Shown: in pieces, positions 11,710-18,583 of the stretch
How positions within the stretch are numbered: position 1 is the stretch's first letter
How the letters are laid out: the number at the start of each line of letters is the position of its first letter
Assembly (NCBI GenBank): GCA_003153475.1
Contig: PLYT01000005.1
Coordinates: 26,781 to 90,780 of the forward strand
DNA length: 64,000 nucleotides
Reading direction: 5' to 3'
DNA from: Betaproteobacteria bacterium
GTDB lineage: Bacteria; Pseudomonadota; Gammaproteobacteria; Burkholderiales; Casimicrobiaceae
Made by a program: the position numbers and the translations under genes
The notes under the pieces: model-generated
Seen by the model: the letters and a program-made list of their open reading frames with translations, nothing else
Told to the model about the DNA's origin: nothing
The model's database searches: none

Positions 11710-13806
<2,097 letters not shown>

Positions 13807-13859: not shown

Positions 13860-16274
13860 TCAGACGACGCGGCGCAGCAGGCCTGGATCGCGCGCGGCTC
13901 GTGTCCAGACCGAGGCGCGCATCCACGCGACCAGGTCTGCCGCTACCACCGGGCGGCTGAGCAGGTAGCCTTGGACCATGTCGCAGCTCAAGCCCCGCAG
14001 GCGCTCGACCGTCGCTTCGTCCTCGACGCCTTCCGCGACGACCACCAGGCCCATGTTGTGCGCGAGGTCGATCGTCGAGCGCACGATCACCGCATCGCTG
14101 GTGTCGCGTGCCATCCCGAGGATGAACGTCTTGTCGATCTTGAGCTCGTGCACCGGCAGCCGGCGCAGGTAGGCAAGCGACGAGTAGCCGGTGCCATAGT
14201 CGTCGATCGCCAGCCGGCAGCCCAGCGCATGCAGCCGCCGCAGATTGTCGATCGCGTGATCCGGATCGTCGAGAATCGCGCTCTCGGTGATTTCCAGCGT
14301 AATCCACTGCGCGGCGCAGCCGTGTTCGTGAAGCAGTGCCTCCACCCGGTCGGGCAACTCGAGGTCGACCAGGTCGCGCGCCGAGATGTTGATCGACACG
14401 TTCATCGGCAGGTCGTCGCTGTGCCAGGCGGCGCATTGCGCGATCGCGCGGCTCATCACCCACTGCGTGATCGCGCGGATGTATCCGGTCTGCTCGGCGA
14501 AAGCGATGAATTCGACCGGGGAGACCAGACCGCGCGTCGGATGCCGCCAGCGCACCAGCGCCTCAGCGTGCATCTCGCTGCCTCCGCGCAGTGCAACCTT
14601 GGGCTGATAGAAGAGCACCAGCTCGTCTTCGTCGACCGCCTTGCGCAAGCCGCTCATCAGCGACAGGCGTTCCTTGCTGTGCTGGTCGTAGCGCTCGTCC
14701 CAGAGCGCGATGCCGAGATTCTTGCGCTTGGCCGCGTACATTGCGGCGTCGGCGTGGCGGAGCAAGGTCGAGCGTTCGCTGCCATGCTCGGGATAGATCG
14801 CGATGCCGATGCTGGCGCGCACGTCGACGACGTGGCCTTCGGGCGTCATCGGCATGTCCAGCGCGTGCAGCAGCGACTTGGCGACCCGCTCTGCCTGAGC
14901 CGCGTCGTCGCCCGGCAGCAGTATTGCGAACTCGTCGCCGCCGAGGCGCGCGACGGTATCGGTCGGCCGCTTGAGCACGAGCTCGAGCCGGGACGAGACG
15001 GCCCGCAGGATCAGATCGCCGATCGAATGGCCGAGCGAGTCGTTGACGTCCTTGAAGTGATCGAGGTCCATCAGCAGCACCGCGACCGGCATCCCCAGGG
15101 CGGCGGCACTGAGCAGCGCCTCGTCGAGGCGGTCGTTGTACAGCGCCCGGTTCGGCAACTGCGTCAACCCGTCCCGGTAGGCCAGATCCATGATCCGCGA
15201 TTCGCGGCTCGCGATGTCGTCCTGCATGATGCGAAAAGCGCTGGCGAGATCGCCGATTTCGTCGGTGCGCGACACCGGTGGAGCGGTCGAGTAGTCGCCG
15301 GCGGCGATGCGCAGCGCGATGCCGGCCAGGTCGTGCACCGGGCGCGCAATCCCCCGGGCGATGACAATACTCGCGAACACCGAAATGATCGCCCACAGCA
15401 GCGAGATCAGCGCCATCTGGTGTTGCAGGCGACGGAACGGCTCGAGGGCCGGGTACAAGGGCTGCTGCAGCACGGCGACGACCGCCGCGTCCGCCAGCGT
15501 CGGCAGTTGCAGGACACGGGTGATCGCCGTGTCGCCGTAGGCCGCATTGCCGTCGGCATCGGCTTCGGCAAAGCGATCGGACGCCATGTCGGCGCGCAAG
15601 TCGGTGCGATCGGCCAGCGCCAGCGTGCTGGCCTGAAGCTTCCAACCATCGTTGGCGCGCCGGCTGAAAAAAGTCACGTCGAGCCCCGTCAGCCGCCGTA
15701 ATTCATTCGTCAGCGGGTCGTTGACCCGCTGGCCGACGACTGCCCACGCGATGGGCACCGGAGCCAGCACCGGAACGACGACCAGCTGGTAGAGTTCGCC
15801 GCGCAGGACGACCATCGCGGTCGCCTGTTCCAGAACTTCGGCCTGATCGAGGAGACGTGGCAGCGCAAAGGGCTTGCCCGTGCCGATGTCGAGCGTGTCG
15901 CCCACGACTTTCTGGTCGAGACCGACGATCATCACCAGTGGCGCCTCGATCCGCTTGCCGTAGTTGACGAGCACGGAGCCGATGGTGTCGTGATCTCCGG
16001 TGGCGATCACCTCGCGGAACGCATAGTCGGCCGCCATCAGGCGCGCGCCCTGGACCAGGCGCTGCGCGTCCTGCTCGAGCAGGCGGTCGAACACGCGTGC
16101 GCCGGCGACGACTGCGGCGCCAACGGTGCTGCGTGCAGCGTTACCGCCCACCGTGTTGATCAGTACGAAGCCGCCGACCTGGACGACAAAGATCAGCAGC
16201 AGGAAAAGCGCCAGGATGCGCCTTTGCAGGTTGCGCATCGGCAGCGCCCACAGCCGTTTGAGTGTTGTCGTCAT
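13860..16274 (-). CDS. Membrane GGDEF-EAL protein with periplasmic sensor and HAMP
   Basis: 804 residues. TM1 at about 18-40, a periplasmic sensor of about 245 residues (cache/CHASE-like by layout), TM2 at about 288-310 followed by HAMP ('ARGIARPVHDLAGIALRIA'). The GGDEF domain keeps the intact catalytic 'RLGGDEFAILLPG' near residue 445. The EAL domain has 'AEALVRWRHP', 'NISARDL', 'EITESAI' and 'IDDYGTGYSSL', so both synthesis and hydrolysis of c-di-GMP look possible. No RxxD inhibitory site is obvious. It is divergent from the beta-barrel/cupredoxin genes across an AT-rich island, suggesting it senses an envelope signal linked to them. Confidence 0.93.
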   Translation of the reverse strand: MTTTLKRLWALPMRNLQRRILALFLLLIFVVQVGGFVLINTVGGNAARSTVGAAVVAGARVFDRLLEQDAQRLVQGARLMAADYAFREVIATGDHDTIGSVLVNYGKRIEAPLVMIVGLDQKVVGDTLDIGTGKPFALPRLLDQAEVLEQATAMVVLRGELYQLVVVPVLAPVPIAWAVVGQRVNDPLTNELRRLTGLDVTFFSRRANDGWKLQASTLALADRTDLRADMASDRFAEADADGNAAYGDTAITRVLQLPTLADAAVVAVLQQPLYPALEPFRRLQHQMALISLLWAIISVFASIVIARGIARPVHDLAGIALRIAAGDYSTAPPVSRTDEIGDLASAFRIMQDDIASRESRIMDLAYRDGLTQLPNRALYNDRLDEALLSAAALGMPVAVLLMDLDHFKDVNDSLGHSIGDLILRAVSSRLELVLKRPTDTVARLGGDEFAILLPGDDAAQAERVAKSLLHALDMPMTPEGHVVDVRASIGIAIYPEHGSERSTLLRHADAAMYAAKRKNLGIALWDERYDQHSKERLSLMSGLRKAVDEDELVLFYQPKVALRGGSEMHAEALVRWRHPTRGLVSPVEFIAFAEQTGYIRAITQWVMSRAIAQCAAWHSDDLPMNVSINISARDLVDLELPDRVEALLHEHGCAAQWITLEITESAILDDPDHAIDNLRRLHALGCRLAIDDYGTGYSSLAYLRRLPVHELKIDKTFILGMARDTSDAVIVRSTIDLAHNMGLVVVAEGVEDEATVERLRGLSCDMVQGYLLSRPVVAADLVAWMRASVWTRAARDPGLLRRVV

Positions 16275-16580
16275 CGTGCGCCCGGCCCGTGGCCGGCCCT
16301 CGACCCACCGGCCACCATCGCTGCGATGCCGCCGCGATCACTGCCGCGCACCGGCACTTCGGCGACCAACGCCGCCGCTCCTGGTCGGCAAAAAATGACC
16401 CGCACCCGGTCCTTCGACCCGGCCTGCCTCCGAATATGACTATTTAATATCATATTATTCAATAAGTTACAGACAACAACTGCTTCGTTCAGCCCCCCGG
16501 CTTTCCGCCTCGCATCAAAAGTGCTTGTGCACCACGTGTTGCGAGCCCATGACTAAGCAAGTTCCCTGCCGCCGATAGCG
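16275..16580. promoter_or_regulatory. Divergent intergenic region with AT-rich island
   Basis: 306 bp between the GGDEF-EAL gene and the beta-barrel gene. Bases 16436-16482 are strikingly AT-rich for this genome and contain TAATAT-C-ATATTA (16445-16457), a perfect 6-bp inverted repeat around one base. Likely holds the promoters for both directions and perhaps an operator. No gene is apparent. Confidence 0.5.
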
Positions 16581-17513
16581 ATGAATGCCATGCCAAATTT
16601 AGATCCCGCTCGCCGCGTGCGACGCACCGCGCGTCGTCGCCGCGTCGCGGCGCCTTGGTGGCTGTCCGGGATAATGCTGCTCTGCGCCGCCGGACCGGCC
16701 TGCGCCGAGTGGTTCTACGACGTGCGGGCGGGCGGCATGTACGACGACAACCTGACCCGGGCTCAGCAGGCGGCCGATGTCCGCGGTGACGCCGCGGCAA
16801 CGCTGGCCGCAGCCGCAGGATGGTTCGTCGCGCCGACGGGCGCCGATGGCGTCACGCTGTCACTCGACGCGAACAGCGAGGCCTATGGACGCTTTCATGG
16901 ACTGAATCTGATCTCGATCGGCGCCGGCGCGGGCTATCGCCACAAGTTCGGGCTGGGCTCGGCGGCCCCCTGGGTATCGGTCACAGTCAAGGCGGCGCAC
17001 GACGATTATCGCGGCGACATTCGCGACAGCGATCGCTTCGAAGCCGGCGTCGAGGTCGGACGGCGCCTGAGCACGGATTTCGACGCCTCGTTCGGCGTCG
17101 CGGGCGACCGGCGGCGGCCCCGCAACGATAGCCCCGTCGTGCCCGGCATTTCCGGCAAGATATTCGATTTGCGCGGACAAAGCGTGTTTGCGCGCGCTGC
17201 GTATGACGTCAGCGACCGGCTGCAGGTCGGCGGACGCCTGTCGGTGCGCCGCGGCGACATCGAGTCGACGACCCGGCAGAATATCGACATTTTCCTGGCC
17301 TCCGACGCCATCGCGGCGGACCCCACGTTTGGCAGCGATTTCTACGCGTACCGGCTGCGGGGCACGACCAAGACAGTCAACCTGAATGCGAGCTGGGCCC
17401 TGTCGGATCGCTCCTCGATCAACTTCGGCTACGCGCTGGCCAGCACCGCCGCCTACGACGACCTCAACTACTTGAGCCGGGTCGGCTCGATCCTGCTGGC
17501 CTTCCACTTCTGA
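16581..17513 (+). CDS. Outer-membrane beta-barrel protein
   Basis: 310 residues. A very basic N-terminus precedes a signal peptide ending near 'GPACAEWFYD'. The mature sequence alternates polar and hydrophobic residues in short strands with Gly/Asp turns ('VRAGGMYDDNLTRA', 'NFGYALASTAAYDDL') and ends in Phe ('SILLAFHF'), the C-terminal signal of BAM-inserted barrels. Length suits a barrel of about 12-16 strands. No porin family is recognised. The cupredoxin-like gene follows 29 nt downstream, so the two are probably one transcript. Confidence 0.8.
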   Translation: MNAMPNLDPARRVRRTARRRRVAAPWWLSGIMLLCAAGPACAEWFYDVRAGGMYDDNLTRAQQAADVRGDAAATLAAAAGWFVAPTGADGVTLSLDANSEAYGRFHGLNLISIGAGAGYRHKFGLGSAAPWVSVTVKAAHDDYRGDIRDSDRFEAGVEVGRRLSTDFDASFGVAGDRRRPRNDSPVVPGISGKIFDLRGQSVFARAAYDVSDRLQVGGRLSVRRGDIESTTRQNIDIFLASDAIAADPTFGSDFYAYRLRGTTKTVNLNASWALSDRSSINFGYALASTAAYDDLNYLSRVGSILLAFHF

Positions 17514-17542
17514 TCCGACTATCGACGATGGAGACTTCCCGC

Positions 17543-18193
17543 ATGCGCATCCTCTTTGGCCTCGCCCTGTTCGCGCTGACCGCGCAGACGGCGCTGGCGC
17601 AGAACGAGATCGTCGCCACCGTTCTCGACGACAATGGCAAGCCGGTGGCCGATGCGGTCGTCGTCGCCGTCCCGGCCGACGGCGGCATACGCCTGCCGAC
17701 CCGACGCGACGCGGTCGTCGACCAGGTCGACAAGGAATTCACACCGAAGGTCAACGCGATCCTGGTCGGCACGCCGGTGATCTTCCCGAACCACGACAAC
17801 GTCCGGCACCACGTCTATTCGTTCTCGCCGGCCAAGCGCTTCGAGCTGCCGCTCTATGCCGGCGTGCCTGCGCAGCCGGTCGTATTCGACACCCCGGGCG
17901 TCGTCATCCTCGGCTGCAACATTCACGACTGGATGGTCGGTTACGTCTACGTGTCCGAATCGCCGTATTTCGCCAAGACGCGCGCCGACGGCAAGGCGGT
18001 GATCGCCGACGTGCCGGGGAAAACCTACATCGTGCGCGTATGGCATCCGCAGCTCGAAGGCTCCGAAGCCATGACCAAAAGAACGGTCGACCTTTCCGCA
18101 AAGCGGCGGGTCGACGTCGAATGGGCGTTGAAGCTCAAGCCGGAATTGCGCATGCGCCGGTCGCCCGTCGGCGACCACAGTGGGCACTATTGA
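17543..18193 (+). CDS. Periplasmic cupredoxin-like protein ('methylamine utilization' type)
   Basis: 216 residues from an ATG with GGAG 8 nt upstream; a longer ATG start 15 nt earlier lacks this. A signal peptide ends at 'AQTALAQNE'. Then comes an Ig-like or carboxypeptidase-regulatory strand region ('ATVLDDNGKPVADAVV') and a plastocyanin-like fold with copper-type ligands in 'NHDNVRHHVYSF' and 'ILGCNIHDWMVGYV' (His, Cys, His, Met arrangement). Such proteins are often annotated as methylamine utilization proteins, but no mau genes are here. It probably binds copper in the periplasm and works with the adjacent barrel. Confidence 0.82.
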   Translation: MRILFGLALFALTAQTALAQNEIVATVLDDNGKPVADAVVVAVPADGGIRLPTRRDAVVDQVDKEFTPKVNAILVGTPVIFPNHDNVRHHVYSFSPAKRFELPLYAGVPAQPVVFDTPGVVILGCNIHDWMVGYVYVSESPYFAKTRADGKAVIADVPGKTYIVRVWHPQLEGSEAMTKRTVDLSAKRRVDVEWALKLKPELRMRRSPVGDHSGHY

Positions 18194-18256
18194 CATGTGT
18201 GCGCCAAGCCACCAAACTCGCGCCCCGATGAAATGCCGTAACGGGAAAGGCTGACG

Positions 18257-18583
18257 ATGGACCGCCGCCTGGATTGGATCGCCTCGAACGGGCTGCTCGC
18301 TGCAGGCTTGTATTTTGCCATCGTTGCGCAGGTCGGTTGGGCGCAGTACGCGATCACGGCGTTCACCTGGTGGATGCTGGCCAACTGCGCGACCGCGCTG
18401 ATCGGCGGCCCGGGCTCGCGGCCGGTCAGCCTGCCGACCGCTCCACCGCTGCAGGCGATGGTGTTCGATCTCGGCGTCCTGGCCGTCATGTTCGTCGCGC
18501 ATTGGTACTGGACCGCGTTCGCCTACGCCATGATGAGCGGCTGCGCGGTGCTCATCAGGGAACGCACCCCGAGCAAGCGCTGA
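18257..18583 (+). CDS. Small inner-membrane protein, unrecognised
   Basis: 108 residues with GGGAAAGG about 8 nt before the ATG. Three hydrophobic segments are visible: about 10-30 ('GLLAAGLYFAIVAQVGW'), about 33-50 and about 70-95 ('MVFDLGVLAVMFVAHWYW'). No family recognised. It follows the cupredoxin-like gene by 63 nt on the same strand and may be the last gene of that transcript. Confidence 0.7.
   Translation: MDRRLDWIASNGLLAAGLYFAIVAQVGWAQYAITAFTWWMLANCATALIGGPGSRPVSLPTAPPLQAMVFDLGVLAVMFVAHWYWTAFAYAMMSGCAVLIRERTPSKR

Follow-up and report, generated by a model that had tools for sequence, protein, structure and literature searches.

The stretch of DNA analyzed here, hereafter the window, is 64 kb long with a GC content of 66%. 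Four open reading frames were confirmed at the locus (Table 1). The receptor gene is transcribed away from the genes for an outer-membrane barrel protein (BAR) and a cupredoxin (CUP), and the divergent layout described in the initial annotation was thus borne out by coordinates and strands.

Table 1. Genes and features at the receptor-BAR-CUP locus of the window
Feature	Position	Strand	Length	Assignment	Basis
Flavin oxidoreductase	11710-13788	-		FMN/FAD NADH:flavin oxidoreductase (Oxidored_FMN + Pyr_redox_2), ~70 bp downstream of receptor	
Receptor	13860-16274	-	804 aa	dCache_3-HAMP-GGDEF-EAL	Pfam, catalytic residues, sensor subfamily alignment
Divergent intergenic region	16275-16580		306 bp	Presumed promoters for both the receptor and BAR-CUP sides	
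BAR	16581-17513	+	310 aa	Outer-membrane beta-barrel	AlphaFold, Foldseek, profile match
CUP	17528-18193	+	221 aa	Cupredoxin	Ligand conservation, AlphaFold, Foldseek, Pfam
Small hydrophobic protein	18257-18583	+	108 aa	Adjoins the module, not a member	

The gap between the divergent genes had been noted for its very AT-rich stretch, and no 40-mer in the window is richer in A+T than the one located here (33 of 40 bases, at 16434). The AT-rich core spans approximately 16434-16473 and is accompanied by a sigma-70-like match on the minus strand at 16476-16449. A motif rule for a conserved operator in this region recovered one relative only, the alignment of which was unconvincing, and an Rfam search for a conserved element in the divergent region returned no match.

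The small hydrophobic protein had been counted as a member of the set. There was no detectable homologue of it in the other loci searched, and the genes that follow CUP in relatives were unrelated to it. We therefore dropped this protein from the module. Some of the outside neighbours vary (aminotransferase, small membrane protein, flavin oxidoreductase). A gene resembling the flavin oxidoreductase also follows the receptor in two other loci, L221 (genome G006) and L226 (genome G038).

Domains and catalytic residues of the receptor

The receptor consists of a transmembrane segment, a periplasmic dCache_3 sensor (approximately residues 30-285), a second transmembrane segment and then HAMP, GGDEF and EAL domains; the four domains were assigned by Pfam. 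The sensor scored 49.8 bits against dCache_3 (PF14827; gathering score 25.7) and is thus a member of this family. All EAL catalytic positions checked were present (E571, N629, E661, D691, D692, K712, E748 and Q768), the GGDEF motif was intact and the I-site reads RPTD (R436xxD439). Thus, the proposal that both c-di-GMP domains are intact holds for the window protein. The equal weight placed on the two activities did not extend to the family, however. Among 98 GGDEF-EAL partners, the EAL catalytic residues were intact in 94 (seven positions scored), whereas the GGDEF motif, which is often degenerate, was intact in just 51. This difference indicates that hydrolysis is the conserved c-di-GMP output. 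Judged from its sequence, the window receptor is predicted to be a c-di-GMP phosphodiesterase with an intact GGDEF domain and I-site.

The alignment of the sensor subfamily contained invariant columns, none of them Cys or His; metal sensing, if any, would therefore rest with CUP. The polar residues D83, T97, N104 and R108, invariant across the sensor subfamily, could mark a pocket for a small ligand. The sensor profile had no match among PDB structures.

CUP is a predicted type 1 copper protein

A signal peptide precedes the cupredoxin domain of CUP, which is inserted within a CarboxypepD_reg-like beta-sandwich. An AlphaFold model based on 79 relatives adopted a cupredoxin fold with a mean pLDDT of 90. 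Foldseek matched this model to the purple cupredoxin Nmar1307 (5fc9), amicyanin and pseudoazurin, and the probability of 1.00 for amicyanin, pseudoazurin and plastocyanin places CUP among the cupredoxin beta-sandwiches. The predicted type 1 copper ligands, His94, Cys130, His133 and Met136, were present in 110 of 110 homologues, and Gln66, Asn88, Asp90, Ser100, Phe105 and Gly124 were equally invariant. Lack of a plausible metal site would have counted against the initial annotation; the full His/Cys/His/Met set was found, with no variation.

The ligand loop, C-x2-H-x2-M, has the spacing of amicyanin, which is probably the source of the product name 'methylamine utilization protein' given to CUP homologues in NCBI plasmid records. 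None of the NCBIfam models reached CUP itself, and the amicyanin model was matched weakly by 8 of the 79 homologues.

Other copper proteins were observed in the same genome and in relatives. On contig C9 of the window's genome, another cupredoxin-like gene, divergent from CUP, lies next to a gene for a two-domain multicopper oxidase/nitrite-reductase-like protein (L198:5458-7147). In relatives (L199:5143-9538, L200, L201, L202 and L203), a second cupredoxin/CarboxypepD_reg protein lies near a desulfoferrodoxin-domain protein and a HAMP-histidine kinase. A response regulator with a fused class III cyclase is encoded divergently in these clusters, which represent another signaling cluster linked to a copper protein.

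Three exchangeable outer-membrane partners of CUP

BAR was recognized as an outer-membrane barrel by its signal peptide and C-terminal Phe, both noted by inspection, and by an AlphaFold model with 12 strands (pLDDT 89.4). Foldseek matched the model to EstA, FapF, OmpG and a COG4313 channel, and the EstA barrel was also matched in the profile comparison. A Pfam search placed BAR in no family of its own.

In the loci scored, CUP was accompanied by one of three mutually exclusive outer-membrane partners, namely BAR, DUF3034 (PF11231) and a family of approximately 415 residues (B415) with weak BBP2/porin matches. DUF3034, which is unrelated in sequence to BAR, is the outer-membrane partner found with CUP and this receptor in most gammaproteobacterial loci; it is presumably a barrel as well. 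The profiles of B415 and DUF3034 had no match in the PDB. A probable lipoprotein with a globin domain (PF01152) almost always lies beside DUF3034 (for example, L144:3332-3751, L169:3145-3579 and L174:8532-8963) and was absent from the BAR-type and B415-type loci. This globin suggests that O2 or NO serves as a periplasmic input.

CUP and the receptor co-occur across genera and phyla

GTDB species genomes were scanned with CUP, which gave 80 loci, and more were added from relatives. The flanks of 98 CUP genes were analyzed in this best-hit survey. A receptor with an N-terminal sensor homologous to that of the window receptor was located within 4 kb of 84 of these genes. Outside Pseudomonadota, loci were found in Nitrospirota, Nitrospinota, Rokuibacteriota, Methylomirabilota, Verrucomicrobiota, Myxococcota and Thermodesulfobacteriota.

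As a counterweight to best-hit bias, 398 Pseudomonadota genomes were drawn evenly and 60 CUP loci were retrieved from them. The receptor directly adjoined CUP in 52 of the 60 loci (50 GGDEF-EAL proteins, one cyclase and one histidine kinase). In most pairs CUP came first, and the two genes were arranged head-to-tail, overlapping or at most approximately 100 bp apart. The receptor did not adjoin CUP in the other eight loci, most of which retain a barrel, and CUP and the barrel may therefore have a job of their own.

When the 398 genomes were scored with CUP and a sensor profile, both were found in 58, CUP only in 3, the sensor only in 1 and neither in 335 (Fisher p = 7e-65, with kinship among genomes ignored); these counts favour linked receptors because the profile was seeded from CUP-linked loci. 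Inspection of the three genomes with CUP only revealed a sensor-histidine kinase protein close by in two of them (G120 and G151). Further, CUP and the sensor occurred at separate loci in six genomes of three genera (G114, G413 and G446; G222; G234 and G245), and physical linkage cannot account for these cases. The recurrence of a GGDEF-EAL protein and a barrel beside cupredoxin homologues across genera, on which the initial annotation had staked its reading, was thus far beyond chance. We concluded that the receptor, BAR and CUP form a real module.

Arrangement of the module in close relatives

The receptor, BAR and CUP were divergently arranged, as in the window, at L008, L009, L010, L058, L118, L119 and L124, with varying outer genes; the receptor reading frame of L008 appears interrupted. 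G038 has the receptor at the end of one contig and BAR-CUP at the end of another, possibly the two halves of a single broken locus.

Orphan receptors without CUP were found in the family to which the window belongs (G006, contig C350 of G001, two in G057 and contig C39 of G038) and in another family of the same order (contig C228 of G085). The G002 receptor may or may not be an orphan, because the contig ends there. Further, one genus (g2) has divergent CUPs (approximately 32-42% identity), mostly without a receptor of this kind. Free variation of the neighbours among close relatives would have spoken against the module; a few receptors do lack the barrel and cupredoxin, but the set otherwise stays together.

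Several loci showed rearranged copies. In G082, a truncated CUP remnant directly precedes an intact receptor (L228:6048-6266), and a full CUP-BAR pair is located on another contig. A tandem CUP pair is followed by a single cyclase-type receptor at L072:7929-9288. At L148 and L149, a single CUP is flanked by two sensor-GGDEF-EAL receptors, which represents a tandem duplication of the receptor.

The sensor is retained while the output is exchanged

The outputs in the best-hit survey comprised approximately 51 GGDEF-EAL proteins, approximately 27 class III adenylate/guanylate cyclases and a few histidine kinases. The PF14827 sensor was also present in the cyclase and histidine kinase partners. 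The idea that receptors without GGDEF or EAL were histidine kinases proved mostly wrong, since Pfam assigned eight of nine such partners to class III cyclases and one to the histidine kinases. In a quick tree of 158 CUP proteins, in which many forks were weak, the output type changed at least seven times and the barrel type at least eight times.

Pairwise distances of CUP followed the sensor (r = 0.75, partial 0.53) more closely than the GGDEF domain (0.66, partial 0.25) or the EAL domain (0.54, partial 0.15), and all these correlations are affected by unequal rates and saturation; the GGDEF and EAL domains were taken from the sensor's own polypeptide.

Two directions had been envisaged for the window, in which either the state of the periplasm is reported to messenger turnover or c-di-GMP controls the barrel and cupredoxin. 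The periplasmic sensor is the part that stays fixed, and elsewhere a cyclase or histidine kinase replaces the c-di-GMP enzyme as cytoplasmic output; the first direction is therefore favoured over the second.

Proposed function and alternatives

We consider it fairly probable that the receptor takes its periplasmic input from CUP together with the barrel and that the locus encodes an envelope signaling module. In such a module, CUP, a secreted protein with a predicted type 1 copper site, would associate with the outer-membrane barrel and, positioned by it, would provide a removable input to the dCache_3 sensor on the periplasmic side of the inner-membrane receptor. CUP would engage the sensor differently depending on its copper site (loaded or empty, or Cu(I) or Cu(II)), and the resulting change would be relayed through HAMP to set the c-di-GMP phosphodiesterase activity of the EAL domain. 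The GGDEF domain may be regulatory or may provide a second, opposing activity. In relatives, the same periplasmic front end would have a class III nucleotide cyclase or a histidine kinase as its output. We infer the CUP-sensor contact, the binding of copper, the direction of the signal, its nature (copper, redox or another ligand) and the role of the barrel from genomic and structure-prediction evidence.

The broader proposition is more tentative and somewhat more likely to fail than to hold. It states that a type 1 copper CUP is the detachable input of a widespread, so far undescribed copper/redox sensing module of the Gram-negative envelope. CUP would dock to interchangeable barrels, one class of which is accompanied by a globin lipoprotein that may contribute O2/NO input, and would act on one conserved sensor with c-di-GMP hydrolysis, cyclic-nucleotide synthesis or phosphorelay as outputs.

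The main rival is that CUP and the barrel form a metal- or electron-handling unit (uptake, storage or redox), and that the receptor responds separately to a small molecule bound in its dCache_3 pocket, for example a transported or processed compound. The genes would then be grouped by a shared condition, without direct contact between their products. This arrangement would accommodate the CUP-barrel pairs without a linked receptor (L020, L046, L126, L147, L152, L159, L161 and L164), the orphan receptors and the invariant polar residues of the sensor, which could build a ligand site. However, CUP and the sensor co-occur gene for gene, even when unlinked, and the correlation between their distances exceeds that of any other pair tested. 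Further, barrels of three unrelated families occur with the same CUP, and a single fixed transport substrate is hard to reconcile with this. We therefore regard a separate metal-handling unit as unlikely, but as a serious competitor of the input role of CUP.

It is less probable still that the receptor, by making or degrading c-di-GMP, controls the expression or activity of the barrel and cupredoxin, which would then be the output rather than the input. The divergent promoter region shared in the window would suit such control, but most genomes have an operon-like array with CUP first and no divergent promoter. In addition, the messenger varies among c-di-GMP, cyclic nucleotide and phosphorelay while the sensor and CUP remain constant, and both the barrel and the cupredoxin are exported.

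A role for CUP as an amicyanin-like electron carrier in methylamine oxidation, with the other genes incidental, is a very remote possibility and was rejected, despite the name in plasmid records and the amicyanin-type loop and fold. The methylamine dehydrogenase light chain (PF02975) had no match in the genome of the window, a negative that is weak by itself because the completeness of this genome is 74% and no match was obtained in the control genomes either. Across the 398 genomes, however, PF02975 and CUP occurred together only in G329 and G487, whereas 61 genomes have CUP, and, as described above, CUP is beyond the reach of the NCBIfam models. A chance neighbourhood of unrelated genes would fit the variable outer neighbours, but its probability is negligible given recurrence in at least seven phyla and in most CUP loci sampled, and it is refuted by adjacency in the even census and by co-occurrence in the 398 genomes.

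Many c-di-GMP enzymes have no known input, and the input role of CUP would provide a concrete candidate input protein for a whole receptor subfamily. CUP occurs in approximately 15% of the sampled Pseudomonadota genomes (61/398) and in several other phyla, and one periplasmic front end appears to be wired to three intracellular signaling currencies. A possible function is thereby offered for DUF3034, for families annotated as 'hypothetical barrel' and for those that carry the misleading name 'methylamine utilization protein'.

Comparison with known systems

A secreted partner of a transmembrane c-di-GMP enzyme is known in principle. The role of a copper protein with swapped outputs and barrels looks undescribed; our literature search, the coverage of which mostly excluded subscription journals, found no copper protein in such a role with exchangeable outputs or outer-membrane partners.

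Compared with amicyanin, pseudoazurin and 5fc9, CUP shares the cupredoxin fold and, with amicyanin, the C-x2-H-x2-M loop, but differs in its extra CarboxypepD_reg-like sandwich, its linkage to a signaling receptor and the lack of a link to methylamine dehydrogenase.

The YfiB-YfiR-YfiN system comprises an OmpA-like lipoprotein (YfiB), a small protein under disulphide control (YfiR) and a cyclase (YfiN, or TpbB). The module in the window resembles this system as a tripartite set of outer-membrane, periplasmic and inner-membrane proteins in which a c-di-GMP enzyme receives an envelope signal. Unlike the module, YfiBNR lacks a copper site, an EAL domain and a barrel of the type described here.

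In Vibrio cholerae, NspS, a periplasmic binding-protein homologue that binds polyamines and has a solute-binding-protein fold, controls the GGDEF-EAL receptor MbaA. As in the window, the gene for a secreted accessory protein adjoins that for an inner-membrane receptor composed of a periplasmic domain, HAMP, GGDEF and EAL. Adjacency, co-occurrence and correlated divergence suggest indirectly that CUP may likewise bind the periplasmic domain of its receptor and alter the enzyme activity. In contrast to NspS, the partner in the window is a predicted type 1 copper protein, which does not have the solute-binding-protein fold and is joined by an outer-membrane barrel, and the output is exchanged among relatives. 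Finally, the window sensor falls within the dCache_3 (PF14827) receptors, yet it belongs to a distinct subfamily that tracks CUP.
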